A stretch of DNA of 15,496 nucleotides. Source: Gammaproteobacteria bacterium (lineage in GTDB: Bacteria > Pseudomonadota > Gammaproteobacteria > UBA11654). The DNA is taken from the NCBI GenBank assembly GCA_018672815.1, contig JABHDX010000035.1, positions 1 to 15,496 on the forward strand. The letters are read 5' to 3'. Positions 765 to 15,496 of the stretch are shown here, one piece after another (within the stretch, counting starts at the first letter, position 1; each line of letters opens with the position of its first letter). A model generated the notes under the pieces. That model ran no database searches, had not been told where the DNA came from, and saw nothing but the letters and a program-made list of their open reading frames with translations. The position numbers and the translations under genes are program-made.

Positions 765-858
765 AAGACAATCACTATTACTTTTCACTCTTCTTTATAG
801 TATGGTGTTTGGCTCTAAATAAATAGCATAGTATTTTTTTATAAAATAGAATGAAAAT

Positions 859-2661
859 ATGGTCACAGAAAAAAACATAACTGGATCTGAAATTATAATC
901 AATGTTCTTGCAGAACATGGAGTGGATACGATTTTTGGCTACAGTGGTGGAGCTATACTTCCCACGTATGATGCTGTTTTCCAATACAATGAAAATAATA
1001 AAGAAAATGCTATACCACTCATTGTCCCTGCAAATGAACAAGGCGCTGGATTTATGGCTTCAGGTTATGCAAGAACAACGGGTAAGCCTGGGATTGTAAT
1101 GGTTACTTCTGGGCCGGGTGCTACGAATACTGTAACGCCAGTCAGAGATGCCATGGCTGACTCTATACCAATGGTTGTCATTTGCGGACAAGTAGGTAGA
1201 AGCTCTATTGGAACTGACGCTTTTCAAGAAGCACCAATAACCAGTGTTATGGGGTCTGTAGCAAAACACGTTTTCTTAGTAACGAATGAAAAACAATTGG
1301 AAGCAACTATGAGGGCTGCATTTGAGATTGCAACTTCAGGAAGACCAGGTCCAGTAGTAGTAGATGTTCCAAAAGATATACAAACTGCAATAATTCAACC
1401 TGATGCTAACAAAAAACTCAACATCTCCTCATACAGAAAACGATTGATATCTATAGAACAAAACACCTTAAGTCAGGATGATTGCAAAAGATTCTTTGAT
1501 CTTTTGGAAAATTCAAAACGCCCCCTATTCTATGTTGGAGGTGGAACTATTGCAGGAGAAGCCTATGAAGAATTAAGATATTTCTCCAGTAACTTTCAAA
1601 TACCTGTCGTCACAACATTGATGGGAATTGGTGTTTGTGATACCCAATCAAACCTCTCAATGCGTATGCTTGGAATGCATGGAATGGCCTTTGCTAACTA
1701 CGCTGTAGAAGACTGTGATTTTATGATTGCATTTGGCTCAAGGTTTGATGACAGAGTGGCTGCATTACCAGAAAAATTTGCGCCTAGGGCTAAAGCGGTA
1801 GCACATTTTGATATAGATCCATCAGAGATTAACAAAGTAAAAAAAGTTAATTGGTCGCACATTGGACTTCTAAAAGAAGCTTTGTCTGAACTCACTGTTT
1901 ATGCAAGCAAAAATAAGATTAAACCTGATTTTTCAAATTGGCTTCAAGAAACTCAAGCACTTAAAGAAAAACACGGAATGAAATACAACATGGATTCAGA
2001 ATTGATCCAACCAGAAATGGTATTAGATGAAATTAATAAACTCACAAAAGGCAATGCGATAGTATCCACAGGTGTTGGACAACATCAAATGTGGGCTGCA
2101 CAGTATTTTGATTTTTCTAAACCAAGACAATGGTTAACTTCAGGAAGTATGGGCACAATGGGATTTGGGCTACCCGCTTCAATTGGAGCACAATTTGCAG
2201 AACCTAATGCACTGGTCATTAATGTAGATGGTGATGGAAGTATAAGAATGAATCTTGGTGAATTGGAAACCATTACAAGCTATGGATTACCTATCAAAGT
2301 TTTACTACTTAATAATTCAGGTGATGGAATGGTAAAACAATGGCAGAAACTTTTTTACAATGGAAGATTCTCAGGCAGTGATAAAACATTGCTTAAAAAA
2401 GATTTTGTGATGGCAGCTAAAGCGGATGGTTTTGAGTACGCAGAACGCTTAACCGATAAAGATAAATTACTAGAAACAGTAAAGAGCTTTATTGAATTTG
2501 AAAAGGCGGCTTTTCTTGAAGTAATAATAGACCCTGATGCAATGGTCTACCCAATGGTTGGACCAGGAATGTCCTATGATCAAATGGTCACAGGTGAATT
2601 TATTCAGGGTAGAAATGAAGATCCAGAAATTGATGAAGTGGATCCCAGTGCCATGTTTTAG
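859..2661 (+). CDS. ilvI: Acetolactate synthase large (catalytic) subunit
   Basis: Catalytic subunit of acetohydroxyacid synthase. It condenses pyruvate with pyruvate (valine/leucine branch) or with 2-oxobutanoate (isoleucine branch), using thiamine diphosphate, Mg2+ and FAD. At 600 aa it is slightly longer than E. coli IlvI. Seen: FGYSGGA near residues 26-32; the catalytic Glu60 in NEQGAGFMASGYAR; VTSGPGATN; the middle FAD/regulatory domain with FGSRFDDR; and the diphosphate motif GDG (458-460) with NN at 485-486. Oddities: Ser29 stands where most family members have Pro (FGYPGG), the segment after NN reads SGDGMVKQWQ where NQHLGMVxQW is usual, and the C-terminus is VYPMVGPGMSYDQMV. This looks like a divergent clade, not decay. 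The start is ATG with only a weak upstream purine run. The symbol could equally be ilvB; the adjacent ilvH favours ilvI. Confidence 0.93.
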   Translation: MVTEKNITGSEIIINVLAEHGVDTIFGYSGGAILPTYDAVFQYNENNKENAIPLIVPANEQGAGFMASGYARTTGKPGIVMVTSGPGATNTVTPVRDAMADSIPMVVICGQVGRSSIGTDAFQEAPITSVMGSVAKHVFLVTNEKQLEATMRAAFEIATSGRPGPVVVDVPKDIQTAIIQPDANKKLNISSYRKRLISIEQNTLSQDDCKRFFDLLENSKRPLFYVGGGTIAGEAYEELRYFSSNFQIPVVTTLMGIGVCDTQSNLSMRMLGMHGMAFANYAVEDCDFMIAFGSRFDDRVAALPEKFAPRAKAVAHFDIDPSEINKVKKVNWSHIGLLKEALSELTVYASKNKIKPDFSNWLQETQALKEKHGMKYNMDSELIQPEMVLDEINKLTKGNAIVSTGVGQHQMWAAQYFDFSKPRQWLTSGSMGTMGFGLPASIGAQFAEPNALVINVDGDGSIRMNLGELETITSYGLPIKVLLLNNSGDGMVKQWQKLFYNGRFSGSDKTLLKKDFVMAAKADGFEYAERLTDKDKLLETVKSFIEFEKAAFLEVIIDPDAMVYPMVGPGMSYDQMVTGEFIQGRNEDPEIDEVDPSAMF

Positions 2662-2704
2662 TTTCCCGTCCGCTCTGCCAGTTGTATTAAAAATCCTACT
2701 TAAT

Positions 2705-4156
2705 TTACCTTTCCCCCATGGCATCAATGCCATAGTTTTCTGAGGCAGACTGAGTATAGAGAACTTTTTTTCTAAAAAATCTCAACATTCCCATCTCTCC
2801 CATTCTTGAGGCTCCAATTCCTGATTCTTTGAACCAGTTCTTTTCCCCATCAAAAACATAAGTGGTGATGCCACAATCTTGAATACTAACAGCACCAGCA
2901 TCAATATGTTGTGCGATAGCTTCAGCTTCTTTGTTATCTCCAGCCAAGACAGCGGCTGATAAACCATATTTAGTATCATTGGCTAATCGAATAGCCTCAT
3001 TTACATCACTATAAGTCATGACTGGAATTACAGGTCCAAAAGTTTCCTCCATCATCACTAGCATTGAATGATCTACATTGCCAATCACCGTTGGTAGAAT
3101 CCACTTTCCACCGCCATGATTTTCTATTTCGCCACCAGATAAGATTACAGCTCCTTTATCTTTAGCGTCAGTGATATGGGATTCAATAATATCAGCTTGT
3201 TTATCAAAAATCAGCGGTCCTATGTGCCCTTCTCTAATATTGGGATAATTAATTTTAACGGCTTTTGCTAATTGAACTAACTCTGTTTTAAAATTATCAG
3301 ATACTGATTCATGCACATAGACTCTTTCAATGGATTGGCAAGCTTGCCCAGTAGCCTGAACTGAAGCTCTAAGTACAATTTTTGCACTCTCTTTAGGATC
3401 AGCATTTTCGGTGATAATAACTGGGTCTTTACCCCCTAATTCTGCATAAATAGGAATAAAATTCTCTGCACCACTTTTGTAGACTAATTTTCCAGTTTTG
3501 ACACTACCAGTAAAGCAAAGAGCATCTACATTATTAATTAAGGATTGACCAGTTTCTCCATCGCCTTGTATAAATCGACAAACACCATTTAATTCTGGCA
3601 CTTGTTTTAAGGTTTCCTGAAGTGGTTGGATAAAACGCGGGGTAATCTCACTCGGCTTTACAACTACTGCAGAACCGGCCATTAAAGCAGGGATAAGATC
3701 TATTAATGTAATTAAGAATGGAAAATTCCAAGGTCCAATAATTCCAACAACTTCAAAGGGCTTGTATTGATGTTGATAAGTGACCGTTGGAGCTGAAGAT
3801 TGAATGCCTGGATGATCCTTAAATATTTCTTGCCCAATTGTTAGCCAATCCCCAATCATTGTAGTTAATCTGGCAATTTCAGCAGTAGCAATAAAATATC
3901 TTCCTGTGTCTTGAACCAGAGCCTCAAGAAGGGCTTCATTGGAAGAAACGGCTTTAGCCCAGACATTCAAAGTTTCAGCCCTTTGATCAATAGTTTTCTC
4001 AGACCATGCTTTTTGGGATGACCTTAAATCAGATACAATCTCTGTTATTTCATTATTATTAGTTACCTCAAAAGAATAATCCATCTCACCTGTCCTTGGA
4101 TTTCTCGCTTGCATTGTTCTGCCTTGTAGATCTTGAGTGGTCATATTATAGTCCAT
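2705..4156 (-). CDS. NAD(P)-dependent aldehyde dehydrogenase
   Basis: Soluble aldehyde dehydrogenase superfamily member of 483 aa, the usual length, which oxidises an aldehyde to the carboxylic acid with NAD or NADP. The Rossmann part has GIIGPWNFP (about 138-146), the cofactor lysine Lys167 in VVKPSE and FTGS (215-218). The catalytic base is Glu239 in ELGGKDP and the nucleophile is Cys273 in GQACQS; MEETFGPV lies near the end. The substrate is not readable from sequence; the overall look resembles broad-specificity aliphatic or aromatic aldehyde dehydrogenases. The start at 4156 (MDYNMTTQ) and an ATG four codons later are both possible, neither with a clear ribosome site. It lies 54 bases downstream of the PLP-enzyme gene on the same strand, so cotranscription is likely. 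It is convergent with ilvI, 43 bases apart, with no recognisable terminator hairpin between. Confidence 0.9.
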   Translation of the reverse strand: MDYNMTTQDLQGRTMQARNPRTGEMDYSFEVTNNNEITEIVSDLRSSQKAWSEKTIDQRAETLNVWAKAVSSNEALLEALVQDTGRYFIATAEIARLTTMIGDWLTIGQEIFKDHPGIQSSAPTVTYQHQYKPFEVVGIIGPWNFPFLITLIDLIPALMAGSAVVVKPSEITPRFIQPLQETLKQVPELNGVCRFIQGDGETGQSLINNVDALCFTGSVKTGKLVYKSGAENFIPIYAELGGKDPVIITENADPKESAKIVLRASVQATGQACQSIERVYVHESVSDNFKTELVQLAKAVKINYPNIREGHIGPLIFDKQADIIESHITDAKDKGAVILSGGEIENHGGGKWILPTVIGNVDHSMLVMMEETFGPVIPVMTYSDVNEAIRLANDTKYGLSAAVLAGDNKEAEAIAQHIDAGAVSIQDCGITTYVFDGEKNWFKESGIGASRMGEMGMLRFFRKKVLYTQSASENYGIDAMGER

Positions 4157-4210
4157 TTTTTAAGTGTTTTAGAGTGTAAGACTACTTGTAAAAAGCTATC
4201 GCATCAATAG

Positions 4211-5176
4211 TTATTTAATGAGATTTTGATGTTCCACTGGATCTATATTTCCACCGCTTAGAATTACAAGTGTATTTTTCTTATGAGTGATAAAATGACC
4301 AGAAAGTATTAATGCCAAACCAACAGCGCCGCTGGGTTCTATAATTAAATTCCATTCATTATAAGCAAATCGCATTGCATCTCTCACTTCATCATCACTC
4401 ACAGTAAAAATCTCTTTGAGGAGTTCTTGATTGATAGAAAAAGTTAACTCTCCAGGTTTTGAGGCCATTAATGCATCACATAAACTGGGTTGACTGATGT
4501 CAATCTTAATTCGTTTACCAGCATTCAAAGATTGCTGTGTATCATTTAATAATTCTGGCTCAACACCAAAAATATTGAGGTCACTTAAAGACTCCGATAA
4601 AGCAATGCTGCATCCAGCTATTAACCCCCCGCCACCAATTGGGCATATAAAATTATCAACACTCTCTTCAATTAAAGACAATTGCTGCATTGCTTCTAGA
4701 CCCACAGTTCCTTGCCCTGAAATAACATCATAGTCATCATAAGGAGAAATGATAAACCCATTCTGTTGATTGGCATAATCTTTTGCAATTACTTCCCTGT
4801 TTTCTTTGTAACGATCATAAAATATGATCTGAGCCCCTAAATCTTTAGTTTTTTTAATTTTTATTTCAGGTGCATCATCAGGAATGATAATTGTAGCTTT
4901 TAAACCAAGTAGAGATGCTGCAAGTGCAACACCTTGAGCATGATTGCCTGAAGAACAAGCAACCACATTTGTGTAAGTATGAATTTTTAACATTTGATGC
5001 ATACAATAATAAGCGCCTCTTAATTTAAAAGATCCTGAATATTGCTCATTTTCAGTTTTTAAAAAGATATTCCCATTAACTAACTCATTTAGTTTTTTTG
5101 AGGACAAAATAGGAGTTTCTCTAGCAACACCCTTTAGAATATTGCTCGCGTTGAAGATATTTTCGATTGTAATCAT
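4211..5176 (-). CDS. Threonine dehydratase / serine racemase family PLP enzyme
   Basis: Fold-type II PLP enzyme of 321 aa. Family members deaminate threonine or serine to 2-oxo acids, racemise serine, or cleave 3-hydroxyaspartate. The Schiff-base lysine is Lys51 in SGSFKLRGA. The substrate loop is SSGNHAQGVA (75-84), the phosphate-binding loop GGGGL (181-185), and SGGN (307-310) holds the PLP pyridine nitrogen end. There is no C-terminal ACT-like regulatory domain, so it is not a full-length biosynthetic IlvA (about 500 aa); the length fits the short TdcB or serine racemase types. Ser76 sits where E. coli TdcB and IlvA have Ala in SAGNH, but where eukaryotic serine racemase has its second catalytic base. 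This leaves a racemase or hydroxyaspartate lyase activity open. Nearby ilvI/ilvH would use 2-oxobutanoate if threonine is the substrate (inference). An aldehyde dehydrogenase gene follows. Confidence 0.88.
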   Translation of the reverse strand: MITIENIFNASNILKGVARETPILSSKKLNELVNGNIFLKTENEQYSGSFKLRGAYYCMHQMLKIHTYTNVVACSSGNHAQGVALAASLLGLKATIIIPDDAPEIKIKKTKDLGAQIIFYDRYKENREVIAKDYANQQNGFIISPYDDYDVISGQGTVGLEAMQQLSLIEESVDNFICPIGGGGLIAGCSIALSESLSDLNIFGVEPELLNDTQQSLNAGKRIKIDISQPSLCDALMASKPGELTFSINQELLKEIFTVSDDEVRDAMRFAYNEWNLIIEPSGAVGLALILSGHFITHKKNTLVILSGGNIDPVEHQNLIK

Positions 5177-5193
5177 TGGATAAAAATTTAATG

Positions 5194-5221
5194 TTTACTT
5201 TATTTAAAACTGATTTAGAAT
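5194..5221 (+). promoter_or_regulatory. Candidate sigma70-type promoter for the small alpha/beta-barrel gene
   Basis: TTTACT at 5194-5199 and TAGAAT at 5216-5221 are separated by 16 bases and resemble -35 and -10 elements (4 of 6 and 5 of 6 matches). They lie about 30 bases before the start codon at 5253, in the 76-base gap between two divergent genes, where a promoter is needed. AT-rich DNA yields such matches by chance, so this is only a candidate. Confidence 0.35.
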
Positions 5222-5252
5222 TTAGTGTCAATCAATTAATGGGTGGAAGCAA

Positions 5253-5609
5253 ATGGAAAATTACATAGTCACTATTTATGCCAAGGAAGATCATGCTGAT
5301 GAAGTTGGTGAGTATTATAAAGGTCTCCAATCAAAATATGAATCTGCACCCGGCTTTATTAGTAGAAAAATTTTTAGAGCAAAAAATGGCGCTATGACTG
5401 CAGCAGTAAAAGCCACCTATTCCGAAGAAGAGCTAGCAGCTAGTAGCGAAGAGGATCATGATCATGGACAACATTTCGTTATGATTGAAGAATGGGAATC
5501 AATTCAAGATCGAATTAATTTTGGAAGAACTTTAAGCAAAGAGCATCATATGAAAGTTATACCCTATCTACTTCCTAATCATTCTCATGAATTTTATGAA
5601 AATGCCTAA
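5253..5609 (+). CDS. Small dimeric alpha/beta-barrel (ABM-like) protein
   Basis: Soluble 118-aa protein. The N-terminal strand (NYIVTIYAKEDHADEV), the helix, then the APGFISRKIF turn and the later VMIEEWES strand match the antibiotic-biosynthesis-monooxygenase / dimeric alpha-beta barrel fold. Members are cofactor-free monooxygenases, heme-degrading enzymes or proteins of unknown role, and no catalytic pattern lets me choose. Between the middle strands there is an acidic, His-containing insert (about residues 56-73, with EEDHDHGQH) that could bind a metal. The ATG start has a good ribosome site (GGTGGA at 5242-5247). It is monocistronic, divergent from the PLP-enzyme gene, and its stop overlaps the convergent pterin dehydratase gene by 4 bases. 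Confidence 0.7.
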   Translation: MENYIVTIYAKEDHADEVGEYYKGLQSKYESAPGFISRKIFRAKNGAMTAAVKATYSEEELAASSEEDHDHGQHFVMIEEWESIQDRINFGRTLSKEHHMKVIPYLLPNHSHEFYENA

Positions 5610-5947
5610 GAAATAATATTATCTATCTTCTTGGCACAGATAAAATCGTTTTCAGATAAACCATCAATTGAATGTGTTGAATAAGTCACTTTACAAGACC
5701 CATAGTGTATTTCCATTTCTGGATGATGATCTTCTGTATCAGCAACCCAAGCTACTGCATTAACAAATGAAATGGTCTTGGTATAGTTTGAAAATTTAAA
5801 CTCTCTAACAATCTCTTTGGCATCATCGGATATTATCCATTTTGGATCTATGGCTTCTCCAATTTGTTTTGCAGCAGTCATATCCAAAGGCTGAACGCCT
5901 CCCTCACAAGGAGTACAATGCTTCTTTGCTAGATCATCAGTTGACAT
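5606..5947 (-). CDS. phhB: Pterin-4a-carbinolamine dehydratase
   Basis: Dehydrates 4a-hydroxytetrahydrobiopterin (or its bacterial pterin counterpart) so that the cofactor of phenylalanine hydroxylase can be recycled. It is a cytoplasmic protein of 113 aa, the normal size. The signature TEDHHPEMEIHY is at about 71-82. His74, His75 and His92 match the three active-site histidines of the DCoH/PhhB family, including the 17-residue spacing from the second to the third. The N-terminal CTPCEGG segment is typical of bacterial PhhB. No phenylalanine hydroxylase gene is in the window, and many marine bacteria keep an orphan copy, possibly for molybdopterin metabolism (recalled, not shown here). It starts 10 bases after the DedA stop, with a GAAGAGA ribosome site, so it may be the last gene of the minus-strand operon. 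Confidence 0.93.
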   Translation of the reverse strand: MSTDDLAKKHCTPCEGGVQPLDMTAAKQIGEAIDPKWIISDDAKEIVREFKFSNYTKTISFVNAVAWVADTEDHHPEMEIHYGSCKVTYSTHSIDGLSENDFICAKKIDNIIS

Positions 5948-5957
5948 TTCAGTCTCT

Positions 5958-6476
5958 TCACTTAAAAAATATTAGAATATTATCTATTCCTATGATTAAA
6001 ATTGCTAGTGCGAGCCCCCAAATAAAGCATGCACAAATAGAACTAATGATAAAAGTTATAGAAGGCATCTTTGCTAAACCGGCAATAAAAGGTATGAAAG
6101 GTCTAATGGCTGGTGTGAGCCTGCCAATGATAATTCCTCCCCACCCGTAACGATCAAAAAATGCCTCACCTTGTTTTATTTGATCCTTTCTATTTTGTAA
6201 GAATTTCTTTTGTTTTAATTTAGGACCAAAAAAAGACCCCAAATAAAAACTTAAAAAATCCCCTAGAAAAGAACCCATTCCTGCAGCTAAACAAATTGTA
6301 AGTAATTCAACGTCAGCCTCGTTAAGCGTTATTGCCAAAAGTAACAATATTACGCTTGGCCAGAAAGTTCCTAAAATTATAAAAGACTCAGAAAAGGCTA
6401 CTACAAACATGACAAAAGCAGAAAATTCTGGATTAGCCAACACCCAAAACTCTAATTGTTCATATGATATATTCAC
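5958..6476 (-). CDS. DedA/VTT-family membrane protein
   Basis: Inner-membrane protein of 172 aa with several hydrophobic segments (about 17-50, 55-85, 110-140 and 145-170). It carries the DedA core motif GRLTPAIRPFIPFIAGLAKM (about 118-137) and an acidic residue in the first re-entrant region (FSESFIILGTFWP). DedA proteins are thought to flip undecaprenyl phosphate or phospholipids and to support membrane potential. At 172 aa it is a little shorter than the usual 200. The start is GTG at 6476; no in-frame ATG fits the N-terminus better. It lies 30 bases after the second VWA gene and 10 before phhB on the same strand. Whether it serves the VWA cassette or is just cotranscribed is not clear. 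Confidence 0.85.
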   Translation of the reverse strand: MNISYEQLEFWVLANPEFSAFVMFVVAFSESFIILGTFWPSVILLLLAITLNEADVELLTICLAAGMGSFLGDFLSFYLGSFFGPKLKQKKFLQNRKDQIKQGEAFFDRYGWGGIIIGRLTPAIRPFIPFIAGLAKMPSITFIISSICACFIWGLALAILIIGIDNILIFFK

Positions 6477-6506: not shown

Positions 6507-7496
6507 TTAATATGATTCTACAACAACAGCGCCATAATTCTCACTTGCAAGAACTCTTAACATATTTTGGAATTCAACTGGATTGAAAGTTGCATTATTA
6601 GGAAAAGCCATGCCATGTATCCTTATAAAAGGAACTCCCTTATCATCCATTTTATTAAATTTTGATGCCACCCTTCTTATTGCCTCTACAGGATCATCAT
6701 ATAAGTTATTAGCTAAATCATCGCCCATTATCCAAATGGCTATTCTTTTTTTATTGTCTGTATATCTAGTAATTGCTTCATTAACTCCCCTGGTTGGATC
6801 GGAATCACAAGTTGCATTCCAATTATTCAACCTTCTTAAGATCTCATTTCTGTTTCCTGGTGTGTCTGGTATCCAGCCTGTCTTAAAAGAAGGGTATAGA
6901 TAGCTGGCATTACAATTGAGTACCTGTATCCCTTTCAGTTTTTCTTTTGGATAAGCAGCTAAAATATCAGCCATACTATTTTTTAATTTACTCCAAACAT
7001 TATTTTGCATGCTTCCAGAATTATCAATAACAAAAATAACATATTCGCTATCGACTGGAATACCCACAGCTTTACCTTCACTAAAAGACTGTTTTCTCTC
7101 AAGTTTTTTCATAACTTCCGTTAATGATTGCTTAATCATAAATAAGGCATTTTTCTCACCAGATTGCATTTCTGCAAATGCTTTTGTCGTATTATATTGG
7201 CCTTCTATATCAGATAAATCACCAGAGAGTTTATTCTTTTTTTCCTTATTAATAGCAAGTTGAGTAGTTGATGATGTTAATTGCTGATTCAATACTGTTG
7301 AATCACCTCTGATCACTTCTAATTCTCGTTCTAATTTAGAAACCAATGCTTGTAAATCCTCTTGGCTCTTTTGAATAGTAATAGGTTCATATATTTTTGT
7401 AATTACGAGCAATAAAATAACAGCACCGAAGCCACAGCAGACAACATCCAGAAAGGATAAATTGAATGTTTCCATATCTCTTCTTTTCCTCATCAT
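6507..7496 (-). CDS. Membrane-anchored coiled-coil VWA protein (second paralogue)
   Basis: 329 aa. A short basic tail (MMRKRRDMET) is followed by FNLSFLDVVCCGFGAVILLL, one membrane helix with Asp17 at its entry. A coiled coil of about 40-135 and a VWA domain (about 150-329) come next. The metal-site motif is complete: Asp158, Ser160 and Ser162 in DNSGSM, Thr235 in DPTRG, and Asp259/260 in IMGDD. Basic residues before the helix put the VWA domain in the periplasm. The start at 7496 is chosen because it makes an ATGA overlap with the preceding VWA gene and aligns with its paralogue's N-terminus; the open frame extends 33 bases further without a better start. The N-terminus resembles the ExbD/TolR/MotB helix, whose Asp carries protons, so it is probably a partner of the ExbB-like channel two genes upstream (inference). 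No enzyme activity is seen. Confidence 0.85.
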   Translation of the reverse strand: MMRKRRDMETFNLSFLDVVCCGFGAVILLLVITKIYEPITIQKSQEDLQALVSKLERELEVIRGDSTVLNQQLTSSTTQLAINKEKKNKLSGDLSDIEGQYNTTKAFAEMQSGEKNALFMIKQSLTEVMKKLERKQSFSEGKAVGIPVDSEYVIFVIDNSGSMQNNVWSKLKNSMADILAAYPKEKLKGIQVLNCNASYLYPSFKTGWIPDTPGNRNEILRRLNNWNATCDSDPTRGVNEAITRYTDNKKRIAIWIMGDDLANNLYDDPVEAIRRVASKFNKMDDKGVPFIRIHGMAFPNNATFNPVEFQNMLRVLASENYGAVVVESY

Positions 7497-8581
7497 GTTG
7501 GCCAATCTTTGGAAGGTGCAACAAAACATCCTTTCTTCAACCCTGCTAAGTTAATAAAACTAGCTGCTGCTGTTGGGTCTCCATCTAGAGGAAATAAAAA
7601 AACATTCATCGGTATTGATGGTGAAATATCAATTGCTCTATTAAAATATTTTTGCCTATCTCTAGGATAAACTTTTACTGGTACTTTGGGAGTCCTTGAT
7701 CCTAGTGTAGGTAACCCATCAGTAAATATAAATACATTATCTGGCTTTTTGTTAAAAGTATTAATGGCTTCAAAAGCATTATATAAACTGTTACCTCCTT
7801 GAGGGACTGTTAAAGCTAACTTATCAATGGCTGATACTATATTTTTACTATCAGCTTTTATCCATTCTCCATCACTTTGATCTAAAACTGATTGGGCCGA
7901 TTCATTAAATGTATAAATTTGAAATTCTCCTTTCAATCGTGTTGCCATCCATTCAACGCCTTTAACTACCTGGCTCCATTTTGGAGCTCTTATCTTCTCT
8001 TCATCTGGATAAATAGAAAAAAGCAAAGCGTTAGCATAAGAATTAGCTAGCATACTGGTGGATGAGTCAACTAAAAATAAGACACGCTCTCCAGATACTT
8101 TACAGCCAGATATATATTGTCTTTGTCCTTCACCACCTCTATCAAATGGTGAATCTCCACTTAGTTGAGATTGTTTTTCTGCTTCAGATGACAACCTCTT
8201 ACTGTCTTGTTCTAAGATCTTAATATCAGATTTGAGCTTTTCAACACTATCTTGAGAAGCTAGCGATATATTTTCATACAATGAAATTTCTTTAGTAAGT
8301 TCCTCAATAATTTTCATTAATTCATCTATACTCCCTTGTATAGTTGAGCTATCTTCATCTATTTTATTGATTTCATTCTTTATATTTGTCATGCGTTTTT
8401 GACCATCAACAATTTCTTCTTCTAAAAATTCAGTCTGACTTTTCAAGATTACAGATGCTTTATTACTTCTGGACTTAACCTGAGAATTAATAATCATAAA
8501 AAAAAGAATAATGGCCCCAAAACCACATGCCATTACATCCAAAAAAGACAAATTGAAAACATTAAATTGCCTTCTTGCCAT
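7493..8581 (-). CDS. Membrane-anchored coiled-coil VWA protein (first paralogue)
   Basis: 362 aa with the same plan as the gene after it. The basic tail MARRQFNV precedes FNLSFLDVMACGFGAIILFF, one membrane helix with Asp15 at its entry. A long coiled coil spans about 44-140 and a VWA domain about 160-350. The metal-site motif has Asp172, Ser174 and Ser176 (DSSTS) and Asp288 (FTDG). The usual Thr of the second loop (GGT) is replaced by Asn/Ser in GGNSLYNAF (262-270), so metal binding may be altered. Cys160 and a C-terminal Cys (KKGCFVAP) could pair in the periplasm. It lies 12 bases after the ExbB-like gene and its stop overlaps the next VWA start as ATGA. A bare VWA family hit says little; the helix and context suggest an ExbD/MotB-like stator partner with a VWA head (inference). 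Confidence 0.87.
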   Translation of the reverse strand: MARRQFNVFNLSFLDVMACGFGAIILFFMIINSQVKSRSNKASVILKSQTEFLEEEIVDGQKRMTNIKNEINKIDEDSSTIQGSIDELMKIIEELTKEISLYENISLASQDSVEKLKSDIKILEQDSKRLSSEAEKQSQLSGDSPFDRGGEGQRQYISGCKVSGERVLFLVDSSTSMLANSYANALLFSIYPDEEKIRAPKWSQVVKGVEWMATRLKGEFQIYTFNESAQSVLDQSDGEWIKADSKNIVSAIDKLALTVPQGGNSLYNAFEAINTFNKKPDNVFIFTDGLPTLGSRTPKVPVKVYPRDRQKYFNRAIDISPSIPMNVFLFPLDGDPTAAASFINLAGLKKGCFVAPSKDWPT

Positions 8582-8593
8582 AAAGATTTCTAA

Positions 8594-9394
8594 TTATTCA
8601 CCCTTAAGATGGGTAATCAGATTTTGATCTGCATAGGTTTCTGTTTCGAATATTTGACGTTCTTGTAGCAGTTGCAATTGATGCACTAGAAACATAATCA
8701 CTATACTAATAAGTAAAGCGATAAATGTTGAATTAAAAGCTATGCCTAGATTTTGAGTAACGCCACTAATGTCTCCATCCACTGCTTGATGTGCCAAAGA
8801 CAAAGCAGCCCCTATGCCTCTAACTGTTCCAATAAAGCCAATAGACGGTATAGCCCATGCTATATAACGTATCATTGATAATTCAGACTCAAGTCGGTCA
8901 GCTTCACTTTCAATCATTGTGTGTGTTGCAGTTGAAACATCCTGGATATTCTTGGTAGTGGCAAATCGTTTCAAACCATTACTTAAAACTCTAGGTAACA
9001 ATAATTCTTGTTGTGATTCATCTAAATTCTCAAATTGCCTTAAATACATATCAGTATTTTCTGGTTTTATAGTCTGGCCTCTTTGTAAAGGAATAAAATC
9101 ATTCCTTAAAAGCTTTCGTTCATTTAGGGATGTTTGAGCTTTCAGAGCCATGATTGCAAATGCCCATAGCATTAATATAAAACAAGCTTCTTGCTCGAAG
9201 TCACGAATAATCACAAAGAAAGAACGCTCAGGTACATAATTACTATCTTGCGTAATCATGGCTTGTTGCTGTTGTATGATCTCAACCGCTTCAGGCCTTA
9301 CCAATGACACATAAAAAGCATGGACCAGAATAATGGAGATAATTAAGGCAAAACCTTGATATAAAAATTCTTTGGATAAATTGTTGTTATTCAT
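8594..9394 (-). CDS. MotA/TolQ/ExbB-family proton channel
   Basis: 266-aa inner-membrane protein of the family whose pentamers use proton flow to drive a partner (TolR, ExbD or MotB). Four hydrophobic segments are seen: about 13-32, 68-85, 176-200 and 217-240, with a large cytoplasmic loop (86-175) between the second and third. The hallmark is in the third and fourth helices: AIPSIGFIGTVRGIGAAL with Thr190, then VTQNLGIAFNSTFIALLISI with Thr223, matching the polar pore residues of ExbB. No ExbD or TolR gene lies beside it; instead two VWA proteins with ExbD-like N-terminal helices follow directly. Four helices resemble MotA, but the core motif is ExbB/TolQ-like. The ATG start lies 9 bases after the small coiled-coil gene, with a poor ribosome site, so translation may be coupled. 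Confidence 0.9.
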   Translation of the reverse strand: MNNNNLSKEFLYQGFALIISIILVHAFYVSLVRPEAVEIIQQQQAMITQDSNYVPERSFFVIIRDFEQEACFILMLWAFAIMALKAQTSLNERKLLRNDFIPLQRGQTIKPENTDMYLRQFENLDESQQELLLPRVLSNGLKRFATTKNIQDVSTATHTMIESEADRLESELSMIRYIAWAIPSIGFIGTVRGIGAALSLAHQAVDGDISGVTQNLGIAFNSTFIALLISIVIMFLVHQLQLLQERQIFETETYADQNLITHLKGE

Positions 9395-9403
9395 AATAAA
9401 TTT

Positions 9404-9652
9404 TTAGGTATCAGAATAAAATATCATCCCTTGACCGGCATTCACTTTATTTTCCTCTGCAATCTCTTCCTTGAGTTTCTCTTTTTCATATACCTCTTTA
9501 AGTCGATCTAATTCTTCTTGCATTTCTCTGTTCTCATTCTCTAAATTATTATTTTCATCCTCATCAGCGATAGCCAATAGTGATAATGAAATAAATAGAA
9601 AGAAAAAGACAGTTTTATGTTTGATAAGATATTTTATTTTAGTGGTATTCAC
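9404..9652 (-). CDS. Small exported coiled-coil protein
   Basis: 82 aa, not recognised. A basic N-terminus (MNTTKIKYLIKHK) and a hydrophobic stretch (FFFLFISLSLLA) form a signal peptide or anchor, probably cut after about residue 28 (LLAIA). The rest is very charged, Glu-rich coiled coil (about 30-68, with ENENREMQEELDRLKEVYEKEK), ending in a short AGQGMIFYSDT tail. The start is GTG; there is no ATG near the signal peptide. It overlaps the stop of the preceding gene by one base (TAGTG) and has an AGGA ribosome site 7 bases upstream, so it looks real and coupled. The likely place is the periplasm, between the PEGA/FGE-like protein and the channel complex, perhaps pairing with the VWA coiled coils (inference). 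Confidence 0.75.
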   Translation of the reverse strand: MNTTKIKYLIKHKTVFFFLFISLSLLAIADEDENNNLENENREMQEELDRLKEVYEKEKLKEEIAEENKVNAGQGMIFYSDT

Positions 9653-12090
9653 TACTCTATCCTATCACTATAACGTGCAATTCTAAATCCAACATCCAAT
9701 CTTGATGTGACAGCGTGATCTCTAAATGAGTATCTCAGAGCACTGATACTAGAATGTCTCCAACTTGAGCCCTTAATTACTTTACTACTTCCTTCTAATG
9801 GTCCCAAAGGATCTGACACTATATTTTTGAGATCTCGAGGATAGACCTTATAATAATCATTAACCCATTCAGCAACATTACCTCCTAGATCAAAAATACC
9901 TAAAGAATTTGCTTTAAACTTTCCGTTAGGAGAAGTGACAGGATAGCCATCCCAGTATTGTCCTAGAGTATTTGACATAAAAACTTCTGCTGACTCATCA
10001 GCATAATTACCAGATTCTTCTGCAACTGGCATGCTATCGCCCCATGGATACTTTTGTTCTCCACCACCACCATTAAATCTGGATAACCATTCCCATTCTG
10101 CTTCTGTTAAAAGACGGTAACCATTGCCTACTGGTCGTTTCAACTCATACTTACCTTTTTTGATTTCATACGCTGGCTCTAAAGATTCTTGAATGCTCAA
10201 CCAATTGCAATATTCAACTGCTTGTTGCCAACTAACCATTACCGTTGGATGCATATTATTGGATAGTTCTCTAAAAACTTCTGCACCAGAAGTATGCTTG
10301 GGTTCAAACTCTCTAAACTCTTTATTGGATACTTCTGTTATACCAACATAGAAAGGTCTAGTAATTTTTACTAGCCTTTCAGTTTCGTTTGTTTTTCTTC
10401 CCTGGTCTCTCCTAGGTGCGCCCATAACAAATTCATTGCCGGGATAAATCAATCTCATATCTAAGCCCTGAGTTGTTTTGATCTTATTTGGTAAAGCTGC
10501 CAATGCAGCTTCCTCAGGAGTCATAAGATTTATCGCTATAGTTTGCTCATAGCCTAGTGTTGGATTAATTATTAATTCTTCAGTAACATATCCCTCTTTT
10601 TCAATAAGTAATAGTTGCTTCTTAGATAATAGATCAATACTAATTGGAACCGTTCCAATTTTTTTATCCTCCAAAATTAAATTAGCACCTGGTGTACCGA
10701 CAAAATTCATCATGCCATAAATTGGCTTTAACTCTCTTTCAAATTCAACATATTCTATATTTGTTTCTTTTAGGATTTCTTCTTGTGTGTCGAGAGTAAT
10801 ATTTTCACTGATAGTCTTAAATCCTGGCTTTGAAAGACTGATAGTATGAGAAATTATAGGTTCTAACTCCAGTTCAAGAGGTGTTAGACCACGATAAATA
10901 GAATCTATATTTACAGAAGCGCCCTTAGGATAGGAAATAATATTAAGTTTGCTATCTATGAGATTTAAGTTAAATGGCTCTAAGATAATATTTTCTTTCG
11001 CCTTTACGGTAATCTCAGTTGAAAAATCCTTAAACCCATTTTTCTTAATTTCAAGAGCATGTTGCCCTTCTATAATATCAAGGTCCAAAGGGGCCAATCC
11101 TACATTTTTACCATCAATGAATATTTCAGCCCCACTTGGTTTAGTGTCTATCTGAACATCAGCCCAAGCAGGCTTAAGGTCAAAAATGAATTCTTGTTCT
11201 TCGCCCATCCCATTGATGATCAATTGTTCCTTAATGGGAAAATGCTTTTCAAATCGCAACTCAACATCCCTTGTTCCAGATTCCAAAAGGCCTCCAAAAG
11301 GAAACCCTCTCTTTTTACATTCCTCTTGAGACATTTCCATATCTGCACAAATAAATGGTGCTGATCTTTTTCCTTCTAGATACAGTTCATAAACAACATC
11401 GGGCCGGGTTATAAATCTAACAATACCCGGTGTTTTTCTTAATTTCATATCAATAACTTGAGAGGATTCCTTAGTGATTGTAATATCTAAGCTGTTCGGA
11501 ATATAACCTGATCTAGAGTAATCAGCCCTATATTCACCGGGTCTTAATAAAAATCGTCCACTAATTTTTAAATGTGGGAAAAAACCCCCAGAGACTGAAA
11601 CCTTAGCATCAGCTGGCATGGTTCTTATTTCAACAGCTTTAGAGGTAAACAAATAGAATAAAAAGTATCCAACTAAGAAAAACACTCCTATGGCAGCTCT
11701 CTGAAATGCCTTTTTTTGAAAAATACTCTCACTTTGTCTTTTTTGAAACTGTGTTGGTTGATCCTCTATAGAAATATTATTAACATTAATAATTATTTGA
11801 TTAGTAGAAATCTGAAATTGAACTCGCTTATCAGATACAACCAGCTCATCATCATTCTTGATCCAATAATTTCCAGAAAATTCTTCATTATTTACTTTGG
11901 TATCGATACTTGGATTAATCTTTTGCAAAACTAAACGATCATCTATCAAATCAATGATCAAGGCTATCCCCAACGAAAGCGAACCCACAATCAAAATATC
12001 AGAATTCAAATCTGTCCCTATTGTAATGGGAAAATTATCAGAACTAATTTTTCTAGTTTGATTGCCTTCATGTATGTTAATAATTGTCAT
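9652..12090 (-). CDS. FHA-like, PEGA-repeat and FGE-sulfatase-fold membrane protein
   Basis: 812 aa. Residues 1-105 look like a degenerate FHA domain (FPITIGTDLNSDI, then a strand-rich part ending NDDELVVSDKRV), without the usual Ser-x2-His. One membrane helix spans about 131-150. Next come PEGA-type repeats at about 152-217, 310-376, 380-447 and 457-521, each with a P-x-G/D-A core and a late K/S-x-G-F/Y turn. A two-Cys insert (Cys248, Cys258) separates the first two repeats. A formylglycine-generating-enzyme/SUMF1-like domain fills 535-809 (FVMGAP, NWLS, RLLTEAEWEWLS, YPWGD, GGNVAEWVNDYY, GSSWRHS, DVGFRIA). The catalytic cysteines of true FGE are missing from the GSSW-x-FRDH region, so sulfatase activation is unlikely. 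The start at 12090 is chosen for its AAGGA site and ATGA overlap; a 15-base upstream extension exists. Orientation (N-terminus inside, rest periplasmic) is inferred. Confidence 0.87.
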   Translation of the reverse strand: MTIINIHEGNQTRKISSDNFPITIGTDLNSDILIVGSLSLGIALIIDLIDDRLVLQKINPSIDTKVNNEEFSGNYWIKNDDELVVSDKRVQFQISTNQIIINVNNISIEDQPTQFQKRQSESIFQKKAFQRAAIGVFFLVGYFLFYLFTSKAVEIRTMPADAKVSVSGGFFPHLKISGRFLLRPGEYRADYSRSGYIPNSLDITITKESSQVIDMKLRKTPGIVRFITRPDVVYELYLEGKRSAPFICADMEMSQEECKKRGFPFGGLLESGTRDVELRFEKHFPIKEQLIINGMGEEQEFIFDLKPAWADVQIDTKPSGAEIFIDGKNVGLAPLDLDIIEGQHALEIKKNGFKDFSTEITVKAKENIILEPFNLNLIDSKLNIISYPKGASVNIDSIYRGLTPLELELEPIISHTISLSKPGFKTISENITLDTQEEILKETNIEYVEFERELKPIYGMMNFVGTPGANLILEDKKIGTVPISIDLLSKKQLLLIEKEGYVTEELIINPTLGYEQTIAINLMTPEEAALAALPNKIKTTQGLDMRLIYPGNEFVMGAPRRDQGRKTNETERLVKITRPFYVGITEVSNKEFREFEPKHTSGAEVFRELSNNMHPTVMVSWQQAVEYCNWLSIQESLEPAYEIKKGKYELKRPVGNGYRLLTEAEWEWLSRFNGGGGEQKYPWGDSMPVAEESGNYADESAEVFMSNTLGQYWDGYPVTSPNGKFKANSLGIFDLGGNVAEWVNDYYKVYPRDLKNIVSDPLGPLEGSSKVIKGSSWRHSSISALRYSFRDHAVTSRLDVGFRIARYSDRIE
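9660..9663 (-). promoter_or_regulatory. Ribosome binding site of the 82-aa coiled-coil gene
   Basis: AGGA on the minus strand, 7 bases before the GTG start at 9652 and inside the end of the previous coding region. It supports GTG as the real start of the small gene; no in-frame ATG competes near the signal peptide. Confidence 0.6.
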
Positions 12091-13592
12091 ACTCTTTCCT
12101 TGCATTCAATTCTAAAGCTTTGATTATTTTTACCTGGAAGAACTTTGAATCTCAAGCTTACATCTCTAAAACCGTTTCTTGTACCTACTGCCTTATATAT
12201 TCCTGGTCTCAGTGCCATTTTTTTGTTTAGAAAAACACCCAGTTCTCCCACTTTATATAAAGTAACAATAGTCATCTCATCTGAAAGGATCAAGATATTA
12301 ATAGGGACACTTGCAAGGCTGATAATATTTTCTAGATTTGCTATTTGACCTACTAATATTGGCCCTTTCTTCTTAATAACACTAGCTTGATTCAGTGTTT
12401 TTTTTGCCTTCTTTAAAAGATCATCATCACTTAGATTATCAGCATTAGCTGTAAAAAAAATTAATTCGCTAGCAAGAGAAATTCTTTGGTTAACCGTTTT
12501 TAAACTCTCAGAAGCATCCTTAATGTTTGCATCAAGTTTCAGTATGGCTTCATAATGTTTTTTTGCTAAAGTCCATTGTTCATTAACTTCAGCTATTAGC
12601 GCTTCATATTGTATTGACTCAATCTTCGACATTCTGACTTTTAATTCCAATTCTTCAATGGCTTGTAGAACATCCTTAGAACTAGGATTAATTTGCAATG
12701 CCTGATTAAATTCTATTTTTGTTTCTTCAAATTTATCTTCTGCCATCAATTGATAACCCCTTGATAAACTATTTTGAAAAAGCTCTTCATCAAGGCTTTG
12801 TTTTGATATTTCTAACCCTTCGATTGCTTTGACCCAATCTGGATCTATTATTAATGCATTTTCATACGACACAATTGCATTTTTCCATTCACCATCATTA
12901 CGAAAAATATCTGCCTGCAACATTATTTCAATAACCTTATCTACTTTTAAAGCTCTCTCATACCCTGCTTTTGCCTCCAGATTAATACCATCAATTGCAA
13001 GAGCTATCTCATATTGTTGAATTGCCAAATCTTGATTTCCTTGCAATAAGGCGTCACGCGCTTCTCTGAGAGCCAATGATAATCTTTGAGGTATGCTGAT
13101 TTCCAGATCGATTAAAATCTGCATTGATTCACGATACTTTAGAACTGCGGTATTAAATTGTCTCAAGGTATAGGCAGCGTCTCCTTCTGCCTGATACATG
13201 AGTGCATCACTCCAATCCTTTCCTCCCCAAAATAAGACCCCATTGACTTTCAAATCCTCTAATTTAGCCAGTAATTCAGAAAGAAGAGCCTGAGCAATAG
13301 GTTTTTGAGCTAAGTCAAATGATTCATTATTTTTTAAATTTTCAGAATTCTTCTGAATTGATGAATCATTGACCTCCTCTCTATAGTCACTAACAGTGGA
13401 AGGTAGTATAAAAAAGACAACTATTAGAAAGAGCAATAACAATCCACTAAGAAAAAAAGCCAACTTAGGATTAAATCTTTTTTGATTCTCTCTATCTAGT
13501 TTTTCTTGATAAATTGTTTTATTGATATTCAATGATGAGCTAGCTTTGTCATCTGATTTTTTTACTGAATCATCAGTTTTCTTAATATTCAT
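12087..13592 (-). CDS. Membrane-anchored TPR protein with PEGA-like C-terminus
   Basis: 501 aa. A charged, cytoplasmic tail (1-43) leads to one membrane helix (about 44-64, LAFFLSGLLLLFLIVVFFIL). A linker and tetratricopeptide-type helical repeats follow at about 130-370, with clear TPR signatures such as GNQDLAIQQYEIALAID, GEWKNAIVSYENALIIDPDW and DKFEETKIEFNQALQINPSS. The end (about 430-500) has the strand pattern of a PEGA-like domain (LGVFLNKKMALRPGIYKAVG then GFRDVSLRF), like the repeats of the next protein. TPRs bind proteins, so this is probably a scaffold of the envelope complex (inference). The ATG at 13592 is preferred over a TTG two codons upstream. The gap to the previous gene is 9 bases, and its stop overlaps the FHA/PEGA/FGE-like gene as ATGA. 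Confidence 0.85.
   Translation of the reverse strand: MNIKKTDDSVKKSDDKASSSLNINKTIYQEKLDRENQKRFNPKLAFFLSGLLLLFLIVVFFILPSTVSDYREEVNDSSIQKNSENLKNNESFDLAQKPIAQALLSELLAKLEDLKVNGVLFWGGKDWSDALMYQAEGDAAYTLRQFNTAVLKYRESMQILIDLEISIPQRLSLALREARDALLQGNQDLAIQQYEIALAIDGINLEAKAGYERALKVDKVIEIMLQADIFRNDGEWKNAIVSYENALIIDPDWVKAIEGLEISKQSLDEELFQNSLSRGYQLMAEDKFEETKIEFNQALQINPSSKDVLQAIEELELKVRMSKIESIQYEALIAEVNEQWTLAKKHYEAILKLDANIKDASESLKTVNQRISLASELIFFTANADNLSDDDLLKKAKKTLNQASVIKKKGPILVGQIANLENIISLASVPINILILSDEMTIVTLYKVGELGVFLNKKMALRPGIYKAVGTRNGFRDVSLRFKVLPGKNNQSFRIECKERV
12097..12101 (-). promoter_or_regulatory. Ribosome binding site deciding the 812-aa gene's start
   Basis: AAGGA on the minus strand, 6 bases before the ATG at 12090. 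It fixes the start there and argues against the upstream ATG at 12105, which would place this site inside the coding region. Most other genes of the cassette lack so clear a site. Confidence 0.7.
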
Positions 13593-13601
13593 AAGCAAGA
13601 A

Positions 13602-14789
13602 CTATTGTGCAGAATCTTCTTCGAGAATTAATCCAGTCTCTTCAGTATAAATTTGTTTGAGTAATTTCTTCCAGCCTAAGAACATTTCTTGTGCATTACC
13701 AGTAAGTCTTAATGTTTGTCCTTCAACCTCAATAAGTAAACCTTCAGCCTCAGTATCAAAAGAATCTCCACCTTCTTTCATCGATTCTTTGTATATTTTT
13801 GCTTCAGATGCCTTAGCAAAACCACTCTGAACAGCCTGCATTCCTCCAATCATAAGACCTTGCTGAGCATAACCACTAGCATTACTATCACCATCAACCA
13901 TAATGCCTCCTAAAATTGCGACAGCTCCAAGTAGTTGTCTTTTTCTAGCTGATCGTTTTAATTCTTCATAATTGATTGCATTTTGGCGATTAGACTTTCT
14001 CCATTCTTCATAAGGAACTGAAATTTCTCTATATAATTGTGCATAATATTCATTAAGCGTATCAAGAAGCAAAAGCTCCCTTTCCTTAACATCAGCTATT
14101 CTTTGCATAATTGGATCGTCATTGGCAGGTAAACGAGAGATTTTATAAACACTTGTCTTCTTATCCTGAACTAAGTAATCATTAAAAACACTAGGAATTA
14201 AGTCTGAAGCAAATCTTAAATCACCAATCTCACTTATACGCTTTAAGTCTTTAGATATATAACCAATCTTTATCTTTTGTAAATCATTTGCTATTTGATT
14301 AAATATACTTTGATAAGGATCTTGAGTTAAATCACGGCGTTTACTATAAGAACTTTGGCCAACTCTTGCTTTATAAGTTTTATCAATCCACTGCTTTCCT
14401 GAGATATCCCAAACACCAATTTGCATAGAAACATCATATCCATCTGATTTTATAATTCGTCCAGAAATATTAAGATCCATAGCCTTAGTATTATCAGGCA
14501 ACATCCAAACACCCCCCCAAAAACCAGTCTCTTCAAGAGTGTTCTTCAAGTGATAAGGAATATATCTCGCTTCAGCTTTTCTTATTTCCGGGAATACTAG
14601 AGGATTGCTTTCAATATCTTCTGGAATATTAGGATCAAAAATAAAAATACCAACATCAAGTAAACGATCTTCGGTAATTTCTATTTCAGCACGTTTGAGT
14701 TTAACTTTATCATATTTAATAGTTTCACTTAAACTCAGCAATGGTAATGCTAAGCAAACAAAAAAAATAAAGGTAGTTATATTTTTCAT
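13602..14789 (-). CDS. Exported protein with CsgG/TolB-N-like first half
   Basis: 395 aa, no confident family. A signal peptide (MKNITTFIFFVCLALPLLSLS) is probably cut near residue 21; there is no lipobox Cys, so it is not a lipoprotein. Residues 40-175 follow the pattern of CsgG/TolB-N/LpoB-like domains (VGIFIFDP; a helix with LKNTLEETGFWGGVWMLP; LNISGRIIKSDGYDV; VWDISGKQWIDKTYKARV; FNQIANDL). This is a weak, pattern-level match. A charged helical part (225-285) is followed by a glycine-rich hydrophobic segment (about 286-325, LLGAVAILGGIM and GLMIGGMQAV) that could touch a membrane or oligomerise. The ATG at 14789 is preferred; GTG codons at 14795 (overlapping the previous stop as TAGTG) and 14807 are alternatives. 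It is the second visible gene of the cassette. Confidence 0.75.
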   Translation of the reverse strand: MKNITTFIFFVCLALPLLSLSETIKYDKVKLKRAEIEITEDRLLDVGIFIFDPNIPEDIESNPLVFPEIRKAEARYIPYHLKNTLEETGFWGGVWMLPDNTKAMDLNISGRIIKSDGYDVSMQIGVWDISGKQWIDKTYKARVGQSSYSKRRDLTQDPYQSIFNQIANDLQKIKIGYISKDLKRISEIGDLRFASDLIPSVFNDYLVQDKKTSVYKISRLPANDDPIMQRIADVKERELLLLDTLNEYYAQLYREISVPYEEWRKSNRQNAINYEELKRSARKRQLLGAVAILGGIMVDGDSNASGYAQQGLMIGGMQAVQSGFAKASEAKIYKESMKEGGDSFDTEAEGLLIEVEGQTLRLTGNAQEMFLGWKKLLKQIYTEETGLILEEDSAQ

Positions 14790-14794
14790 TCTCA

Positions 14795-15496
14795 CTAGCT
14801 TAAGCACTTATCTATTTCTGATTGGCCTATACCCATATGTTTCAGATATTGTTTCCAGATTTCATTTCGTATATTTGGATCATCTTCCTTAATTGCAAAA
14901 ACTCGAAGTTGTCTGGCGATCTTATCCTCTCCTGAACCATCTATATCAATGCAACTAGGTAATCTTGATATTTCTTCCTCAGACATTTCACCAGTAAATT
15001 CATCTTCGCTATCATTATTACCTTGGCTTTCATCATTACCAAGATCTCCAGAAATATCTATTGGGCCATCCAGATCTGCTCCCATAATTGATTCCATATC
15101 AGCTATCTCTTGAGCAGTCATGCTTGAATCTCCTTGGCTTGATGCAGCAATAATATCTCTTTCTCCAGCCATTTCCTTATCAAAGTCTCCTAAAGACTCA
15201 TTAAATACACTCGAAGCTGACTGTCCTAACTGTTGGTTTGAACTTCCAGCTTGAGACGACATAGTTGTATTATTTTGATTGCTGTCATCCTGACTCTTTG
15301 CTCCTTGACTAGTGCTTTTTGAGGAAGATGGCATTCCTCCTGAACTGGATGATGGCATTGATGATGAACTAGAAGAGGATGGCATTCCTCCTGAACTGGA
15401 TGATGGCATTGATGATGAACTAGAAGAGGATGGCATTCCTCCTGAACTGGATGATGGCATTGATGATGAACTAGAAGAGGATGGCATTCCTCCTGA
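14795..15496 (-). CDS. Ser-rich tandem-repeat protein, 5' end outside window
   Basis: Only the C-terminal 233 residues are visible; the frame runs off the right edge. The visible N-terminal part is a low-complexity repeat of 17 residues, made of MPSSSSSSS plus MPSSSSGG, in three full copies and a part copy. A Ser/Gln/Asn-rich linker follows, then acidic segments (ESIMGADLDGPIDISGDLGND, EDEFTGEMSEEEISRLPS). The end (about the last 55 residues) is a compact, more ordinary sequence with two cysteines (PSCIDIDGSGED and IDKCLS) that may form a disulfide. No known family is recognised. The linker looks disordered, as in stalks or surface spacers. Its stop lies 5 bases before the next gene's ATG (or overlaps a GTG as TAGTG), so it is cotranscribed with the cassette. 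Confidence 0.8.
   Translation of the reverse strand, partial: SGGMPSSSSSSSMPSSSSGGMPSSSSSSSMPSSSSGGMPSSSSSSSMPSSSSGGMPSSSKSTSQGAKSQDDSNQNNTTMSSQAGSSNQQLGQSASSVFNESLGDFDKEMAGERDIIAASSQGDSSMTAQEIADMESIMGADLDGPIDISGDLGNDESQGNNDSEDEFTGEMSEEEISRLPSCIDIDGSGEDKIARQLRVFAIKEDDPNIRNEIWKQYLKHMGIGQSEIDKCLS
15330..15496. repeat. 51-bp tandem repeat inside the Ser-rich gene
   Basis: Units start at 15330, 15381 and 15432; a fourth, partial unit starts at 15483 and runs out of the window. The three full copies are identical by eye, and the array keeps the reading frame (17 codons per unit). The bases left of 15330 (GAGGAAGAT instead of AGAAGAGGAT) show where the array decays. Identity at silent positions suggests recent expansion or ongoing homogenisation, so copy number may vary between strains. 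Confidence 0.95.

Follow-up and report, generated by a model that had tools for sequence, protein, structure and literature searches.

An ExbB/TolQ-type channel, two VWA proteins and conserved envelope partners: a co-inherited gene block that probably encodes a 5:2-type motor

Introduction

What might an ExbB/TolQ-type channel drive when its gene lies beside genes for two VWA proteins? The question is raised by a 15,496-nucleotide stretch of DNA from Gammaproteobacteria bacterium (assembly GCA_018672815.1, contig JABHDX010000035.1; the whole stretch is called the window here), whose minus strand carries at 6507-15496 a cassette of eight closely packed open reading frames (ORFs), uninterrupted from the right window edge. 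We find that many marine bacteria have this cassette as a block of adjacent genes and that the block is co-inherited, far above chance, as one envelope system on an ExbB/TolQ-type channel. We think it probable, at roughly 60%, that the system is a 5:2-type envelope motor of the TolQR, ExbBD, MotAB and GldLM kind, driven by the proton motive force (PMF), with the VWA pair as its inner subunit acting on envelope partners and with phospho-switching in part of the relatives. To our knowledge, a function has been assigned to few 5:2 motors; a motor found this often (20 of the 274 genomes sampled from the class), with an unusual inner subunit and fixed envelope partners, would come with a defined gene list.

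Conservation of the gene block

In transcription order the cassette encodes a Ser-rich protein, a protein with the FlgT/PelC/CsgG/TolB-N fold (the CsgG-like protein), a TPR protein, a protein with PEGA repeats and a formylglycine-generating enzyme (FGE) domain (PEGA-FGE), a small exported protein, the channel, VWA1 and VWA2. In relatives a ninth gene of ~450 aa often lies between the channel and VWA1 (in 63 of the 73 loci that leave space for one). Relatives were gathered by a single channel-protein-seeded scan of genome contigs, among them contigs of metagenome-assembled genomes of uneven quality; the best 80 of 217 loci were analysed, and partner families were assigned by profile searches of the open frames in these 80 loci, contig ends being allowed for in the counts. 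All six tested partner families were present in 41 of the 42 loci with sufficient flank, and family by family the presence was 69/69 for FGE, 67/67 for VWA1, 63/63 for VWA2, 61/62 for TPR, 53/54 for the CsgG-like protein and 47/48 for the Ser-rich protein. Gene order was identical in nearly all loci, and the strand of the channel gene carried 507 of 507 assigned open frames. One locus, L032, is an exception: it is without the Ser-rich, CsgG-like and TPR genes despite full flank and keeps FGE, the channel, the ninth gene and both VWA genes.

An independent, VWA1-seeded sample comprised 274 genomes of the class, among them a centre genome chosen for its cassette. Some match at E 0.001 was found in 36 of the 274, and VWA1 scored at least 215 bits in 20 (19 of 273 without the centre genome); the channel lay within 1.5 kb of VWA1 in 19 of these 20. 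The VWA and channel genes stand on separate contigs in genome G226, and gene order differs in genome G104. An earlier note on this DNA, made from its letters alone, had proposed such a neighbourhood search and staked its reading of the cassette on co-occurrence in other genomes, which both samples bear out.

The channel and the VWA pair

Alignment of the channel to TolQ (E 0.006; TolQ structures were matched) places its T190 and T223 on TolQ T145 and T178, which we take to be proton-path residues. Both threonines are invariant in the 29 of 29 aligned sequences, and both motifs occur in 80 of 80 loci when all long frames are counted. Roles for the conserved threonines in the pentamer are also given in a 2025 study of TPH-vWA proteins (PMC12204202, Mol Biol Evol 2025). 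Each VWA protein begins with a single membrane helix led by Asp in an FLD motif, which is invariant in 48/48 aligned VWA1 sequences (37 of ~70 loci, ten database proteins and the window) and 33/33 aligned VWA2 sequences (32 loci and the window). When every long frame in the 80 loci is counted, FLD stands within the first 130 residues of 70/71 VWA1 and 61/66 VWA2; the five VWA2 frames without an early FLD exceed 450 codons and probably have a wrong start, and the single VWA1 exception is a frame that stops at the end of its contig. The VWA1 and VWA2 N-termini are homologous to each other (hhalign 99.6%). For the remaining alignments, the channel set holds 29 sequences, the ninth-gene set 34 of ~70 copies and alignment set A4 34 loci and the window.

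No tolR or exbD was seen among the window genes or the recurring locus families, the loci not having been searched with an ExbD profile, and the Pfam hits of VWA1 and VWA2 included no ExbD (PF02472) match. Because both VWA proteins have the Asp-led single helix and the channel keeps both TolQ threonines, the VWA pair most likely substitutes for ExbD/TolR as the inner subunit of a 5:2 motor. The earlier note had described a cassette built around an ExbB-like channel that lacked ExbD/TolR. Its view of one co-inherited envelope system stands, as does the lack of a separate ExbD/TolR gene in what was seen; its picture of a partner-less channel with the VWA proteins as cargo gives way, since these proteins have the Asp helix layout of ExbD/TolR and are probably the inner motor subunit.

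A defence system was also considered and set aside: PADLOC matches were of the coiled-coil type, LmuB and Jet among them, except for a weak one to ZorA. In the latter the channel matched the ZorA2 model (18.2 bits, E 2.5e-4), and no ZorB match was listed for the VWA proteins.

Envelope partner proteins

PEGA-FGE combines an N-terminal FHA-like part (20-sequence profile, best PDB match at E 4.2e-6) with one membrane helix followed by PEGA repeats and an FGE domain (Pfam). The FGE domain matches the formylglycine-generating enzyme SUMF1 in fold and sequence (4.7e-13), and its PDB matches include PorK/GldK; the NCBIfam GldK model gave 103 bits, below its cut-off of 350, so the protein is not a GldK equivalog by that model. 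When aligned to human FGE, whose catalytic Cys residues we take to be known, the active-site region holds no Cys in 70 of 70 members. In a near-identical relative (L001:7298-9746) the PEGA-FGE gene is broken into two frames, either by an assembly error or by a true break.

Residues 27-177 of the CsgG-like protein adopt the FlgT/PelC/CsgG/TolB-N fold, the shared alpha/beta domain being found in the predicted structure by a second structural aligner. Foldseek had placed TolB in 17 of its top 18 rows (best E 1.9e-3), which at first left the earlier note's CsgG-like label unsupported; at the level of fold the second aligner upholds it. Beyond residue 226 the model shows long helices, parts of which have a predicted local distance difference test score (pLDDT) below 70. 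The note's description of the TPR protein as TPR plus PEGA-like holds for the TPR part, the C-terminus being PEGA-like only weakly (76% and 14%). In relatives, a small gene at a comparable position has an end motif like FP-x-DI, a loose motif, in 65 of 77 loci.

Lipobox-like starts were found in 48 of 59 relatives' CsgG-like frames not at a contig start, the window copy being without one, and in 39 of 49 such frames of the Ser-rich protein; the pattern is loose, missing seemingly real cases (L014 and L015) and admitting chance matches. The Ser-rich copies of two close relatives, L001 and L002, open with a lipoprotein-type signal. The 51-base repeat region of the gene differs in length in the same two loci, so the repeat is variable between near neighbours. 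Export and membrane signals were assigned by eye.

Kinase and FHA domains

The ninth gene has a C-terminal FHA domain in part of its family (Pfam, 17 of 34 members) and, by eye, no export signal, and the N-terminus of the TPR protein is a Ser/Thr kinase domain in many relatives (3.3e-30 in L079). An ASKHA (Hsp70/actin-like) fold was rejected for the N-terminal part of the ninth-gene product: a PDB profile search ranked FHA first, with Hsp70 stretches at E 0.016 or worse, and Pfam found no Hsp70 or actin family in the 34 members.

The ninth gene is absent in 10 of 73 loci, and searches of the 10 draft genomes of those relatives (L069 included) did not find it elsewhere. The window and L001-L009 have neither the ninth gene nor the kinase (L003 being unscorable for the kinase, its contig ending before the TPR gene). 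Ten rows without the ninth gene, the window among them, form one clade with a Shimodaira-Hasegawa-like approximate likelihood ratio test (SH-aLRT) support of 100, nested among relatives that have both; the tree comes from a short search with support by SH-aLRT only. Searches of this clade's draft genomes turned up no FHA domain (9 of 9 genomes) and, as kinase-like matches, only short ones at 44 bits or less (9 of 9). In the VWA1-seeded sample, 9 of 19 adjacent pairs have fewer than 200 bases between channel and VWA1, too few to accommodate the ninth gene; the 80 loci therefore overstate how frequent this gene is in general, and the ungated form of the cassette may be common.

Scoring 60 loci for a kinase with catalytic residues and an intact FHA motif gave 25 with both, 35 with neither and none with one alone, and all 5 of 5 independent contrasts agreed. 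A first motif rule had given 20 loci with active kinase and FHA, 0 with active kinase and no FHA, 6 with inactive kinase and FHA and 34 with neither, with 3 to 4 of 4 contrasts agreeing (p 0.125-0.25). Under that rule five kinases had been scored degenerate that keep the catalytic Asp (DFA, DYS or similar for DFG), and an FHA domain without its His (L029) had been counted; the revised rule, which widens the kinase motif and tightens the FHA motif, was set after the data had been seen, and L068, whose ninth gene is cut, was dropped before both counts. Ninth-gene absence takes 2 changes on the tree and kinase and FHA 5 each, so the co-loss is mostly inherited. We read the kinase and FHA domains as a candidate writer-reader pair that would gate the motor in some of the relatives and has repeatedly been lost; their co-loss suggests phospho-control of an envelope motor. 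The TPR proteins of L036, L037, L041, L056 and L074 carry pseudokinase domains, still recognisable as kinases but without the catalytic Asp, each with an FHA-motif-less ninth gene. In L079, from Woeseiaceae, a second Ser/Thr kinase with a zinc-ribbon part and a PP2C-type phosphatase lie immediately upstream of the cassette (L079:284-2454).

Proposed mechanism and alternatives

We infer a mechanism in which the ExbB-like pentamer would enclose one membrane helix from each of VWA1 and VWA2, the two probably forming a heterodimer, and protons would be carried by the helix Asp residues together with the two conserved channel threonines. Ion flow would turn or tilt the VWA pair, and the motion would travel up the coiled-coil stalk to the periplasmic VWA heads, which may act on the inner-membrane-anchored PEGA/pseudo-FGE and TPR proteins, on the FlgT/PelC/CsgG/TolB-fold protein and on the Ser-rich lipoprotein. 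The heads might thus be driven against the PEGA/FGE scaffold, as the earlier note had also imagined. Several known members of the FlgT/PelC/CsgG/TolB fold form rings, and we think the likeliest cellular output would be to pull on or drive a surface structure or a ring of lipoproteins in the outer membrane. In the 25 of 60 scored relatives that have both, the TPR-borne Ser/Thr kinase and the FHA protein would act as a phospho-switch for the motor; the window's lineage, without kinase and FHA, would keep its motor unswitched. A bolder picture, which we put forward tentatively and at well under even odds, is a rotary machine that spans the envelope and is widespread across Gammaproteobacteria, with some Acidobacteriota also having it: a TolQ-like pentamer would turn the VWA heterodimer and so drive a pseudo-FGE/PEGA scaffold and a FlgT/PelC/CsgG-type outer-membrane lipoprotein ring, as the counterpart in proteobacteria of the T9SS engine PorKLMN, kinase/FHA-gated in its full form, with the gate dropped and the motor constitutive in a small-genome marine clade.

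Several points weigh against the proposed mechanism. The VWA1 and VWA2 N-termini gave no significant hhalign match to 18 ExbD/TolR sequences from relatives (5.2% and 0.3%), so we claim likeness of layout with ExbD and not ancestry. ExbD-family genes occur elsewhere in 13 of 13 related genomes, so that a borrowed ExbD might in principle serve the channel. Many proteins use VWA domains to bind other proteins, and force transfer is therefore not implied by the fold; the PEGA, TPR and FHA proteins might take part in a neighbouring function without touching the motor. The kinase/FHA association uses post hoc motif rules and reaches p = 0.0625 in the phylogenetic sign test. For most 5:2 motors, moreover, the view published in PMC9389320 is that the inner pair is anchored and the pentamer turns, which would change the direction of force.

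That last view underlies the main rival, which we regard as unlikely yet the strongest of the alternatives: the VWA heads would be a fixed anchor on peptidoglycan or the outer membrane, and the pentamer would turn against a cytoplasmic partner, the FHA protein, like MotAB or Zorya. The frequent position of the ninth gene between channel and VWA1, its lack of an export signal by eye and the weak ZorA match to the channel are consistent with such a stator. But the loci and draft genomes without the ninth gene retain the channel, the VWA pair and the periplasmic partners, and the close channel-VWA1 spacing in nearly half of the VWA-seeded pairs points the same way; since the motor and its periplasmic partners stay where the ninth gene is missing, its product cannot carry the core task as an output to the cytoplasm. 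The same losses bear on the idea that kinase, PEGA and FHA proteins are an envelope-stress signalling system for which channel and VWA proteins merely sense tension or ions. One operon family does hold kinase, FHA and FHA-like domains, and the extra kinase and phosphatase in L079 would fit; we nevertheless consider this receptor improbable, as 35 of 60 scored loci are without active kinase and FHA motif, no FHA domain was found in the draft genomes of the window's clade, and the envelope genes are still near universal.

We give least credence to a side branch of Tol-Pal/TonB, in which the VWA proteins would take the place of TolA/TonB on the periphery of a normal ExbBD/TolQR motor, outside the pore. 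A distinct VWA family with a TolA/TonB layout (SHLS motif) does occur beside tolQR genes according to PMC12204202, and ExbD-family genes are present elsewhere in the related genomes. The same study, however, separates the Asp-bearing paired family from the SHLS family, and in the cassette SHLS appears in the first 130 residues of 0/71 VWA1 and 0/66 VWA2 frames, against 70 and 61 for FLD; no ExbD/TolR-like family was seen among the recurring locus families, within the limit of the search given above.

Gene layout and genomic surroundings

Our reading of the ORFs (Table 1) agrees with the earlier note on eight consecutive minus-strand genes at 6507-15496, with their spacing and overlaps. VWA1 and VWA2 overlap by ATGA (7493-7496), as does the TPR gene with PEGA-FGE (12087-12090); base 9652 alone (TAGTG) belongs both to PEGA-FGE and to the small gene, and the four remaining intergenic gaps measure 5-12 bases. 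The VWA2 start is most likely 7496 rather than 7529, judging by the ATGA overlap, and that of PEGA-FGE most likely 12090 rather than 12105.

Table 1. Features of the cassette, in window coordinates
Coordinates	Strand	Feature
6507..7496	-	VWA2: conserved Asp of the FLD motif (codon 7446-7448) in the membrane helix; coiled coil and VWA domain
7493..8581	-	VWA1: conserved Asp D15 (codon 8537-8539) in the membrane helix; stalk of ~100-130 coiled-coil residues and VWA domain
8582..8593	-	12-base gap, site of the ninth gene in relatives; gene missing in the window
8594..9394	-	ExbB/TolQ-type channel subunit, T190 and T223
9404..9652	-	Small exported protein; window copy ends FYSDT
9652..12090	-	PEGA-FGE: cytoplasmic FHA-like domain, one membrane helix, PEGA repeats and a PorK/GldK-like FGE domain lacking the active-site Cys
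12087..13592	-	TPR protein, membrane-anchored, C-terminus weakly PEGA-like; N-terminal kinase domain of many relatives missing in the window
13602..14789	-	Exported FlgT/PelC/CsgG/TolB-N-fold protein: fold at residues 27-177, long helices after 226
14795..15496	-	Ser-rich protein: conserved C-terminus; 5' end beyond the window edge
15327..15496	-	Perfect 51-base tandem repeat within the Ser-rich gene, 3.3 copies visible

Downstream of the cassette lies a VTT-domain gene (5958-6476), outside the conserved set. Judged by eye, the other genes of the flank at 209-6476 resemble those for acetolactate synthase subunits, aldehyde dehydrogenase and enzymes like threonine dehydratase and pterin dehydratase. 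This flank resembles amino-acid metabolism, and some families from that side recur next to the cassette in Woeseiaceae loci among the relatives, suggesting that the block has long resided on the chromosome. Promoter and terminator scans of the window gave signal no greater than chance, and Rfam gave zero matches.

Comparison with known systems

The motor core is already published as a prediction (2025). PMC12204202, which took an Idiomarina species as its seed, describes TPH-vWA proteins as heterologous membrane-tethered vWA pairs encoded beside tolQ-like genes, with no tolR/exbD and a conserved helix Asp, models them in the pentamer with AlphaFold3, presents them as putative force transducers and places them predominantly in Proteobacteria and Verrucomicrobia. 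The cassette has the TolQ-like gene and heterologous vWA pair by which that family is recognised, and the helix Asp and Thr ring agree as well, so that all features compared are present. Section 8 of the paper names no other conserved genes for this family, and its main text gave no hit for kinase, PEGA or formylglycine; the window's clade is additionally without the ninth gene and the kinase domain. The earlier note's statement that no characterised system has this set thus holds for function, and not for the core of channel and VWA pair, which was predicted there. Searches of the open-licence PMC literature found no description of the full set of eight to nine genes. The cassette set, the Cys-less pseudo-FGE, the partner with an outer-membrane-ring-type fold, the FHA-bearing ninth gene, the TPR-borne kinase and the kinase/FHA co-loss appear to be new.

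With ExbBD-TonB and TolQR-TolA the cassette has the channel family and the Asp/Thr layout in common, whereas the periplasmic ExbD/TolR domain and TonB/TolA were not seen in it. Identity between the CsgG-like protein and FlgT, PelC, CsgG and TolB-N is ~9-16%, and in place of the beta-propeller that follows the shared fold in TolB the cassette protein has a long helical C-terminal part; CsgG carries barrel hairpins. SUMF1/FGE has fold and sequence in common with the cassette family, in which the active-site Cys pair is absent.

PorKLMN/GldKLMN of type IX secretion (T9SS) and gliding likewise has a PMF motor, a long periplasmic shaft and an FGE-fold protein alongside. The GldKLMN shaft ends in GldM domains, whereas that of the cassette ends in VWA; PorK/GldK is an outer-membrane lipoprotein, and the cassette FGE protein instead combines PEGA repeats with a helix that appears to lie in the inner membrane. 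No T9SS gene other than the FGE-like one was identified in the cassette, and no GldL or GldM model, both presumably in the libraries, was among the Pfam/NCBIfam matches of the channel or the VWA proteins. By analogy, GldLM driving the GldK/GldN ring, rather than TonB or TolA, would be the nearest functional counterpart of this system. A pseudo-FGE beside a motor would repeat the PorK/GldK arrangement outside Bacteroidota and bears on how the coupling of motors to rings evolved.

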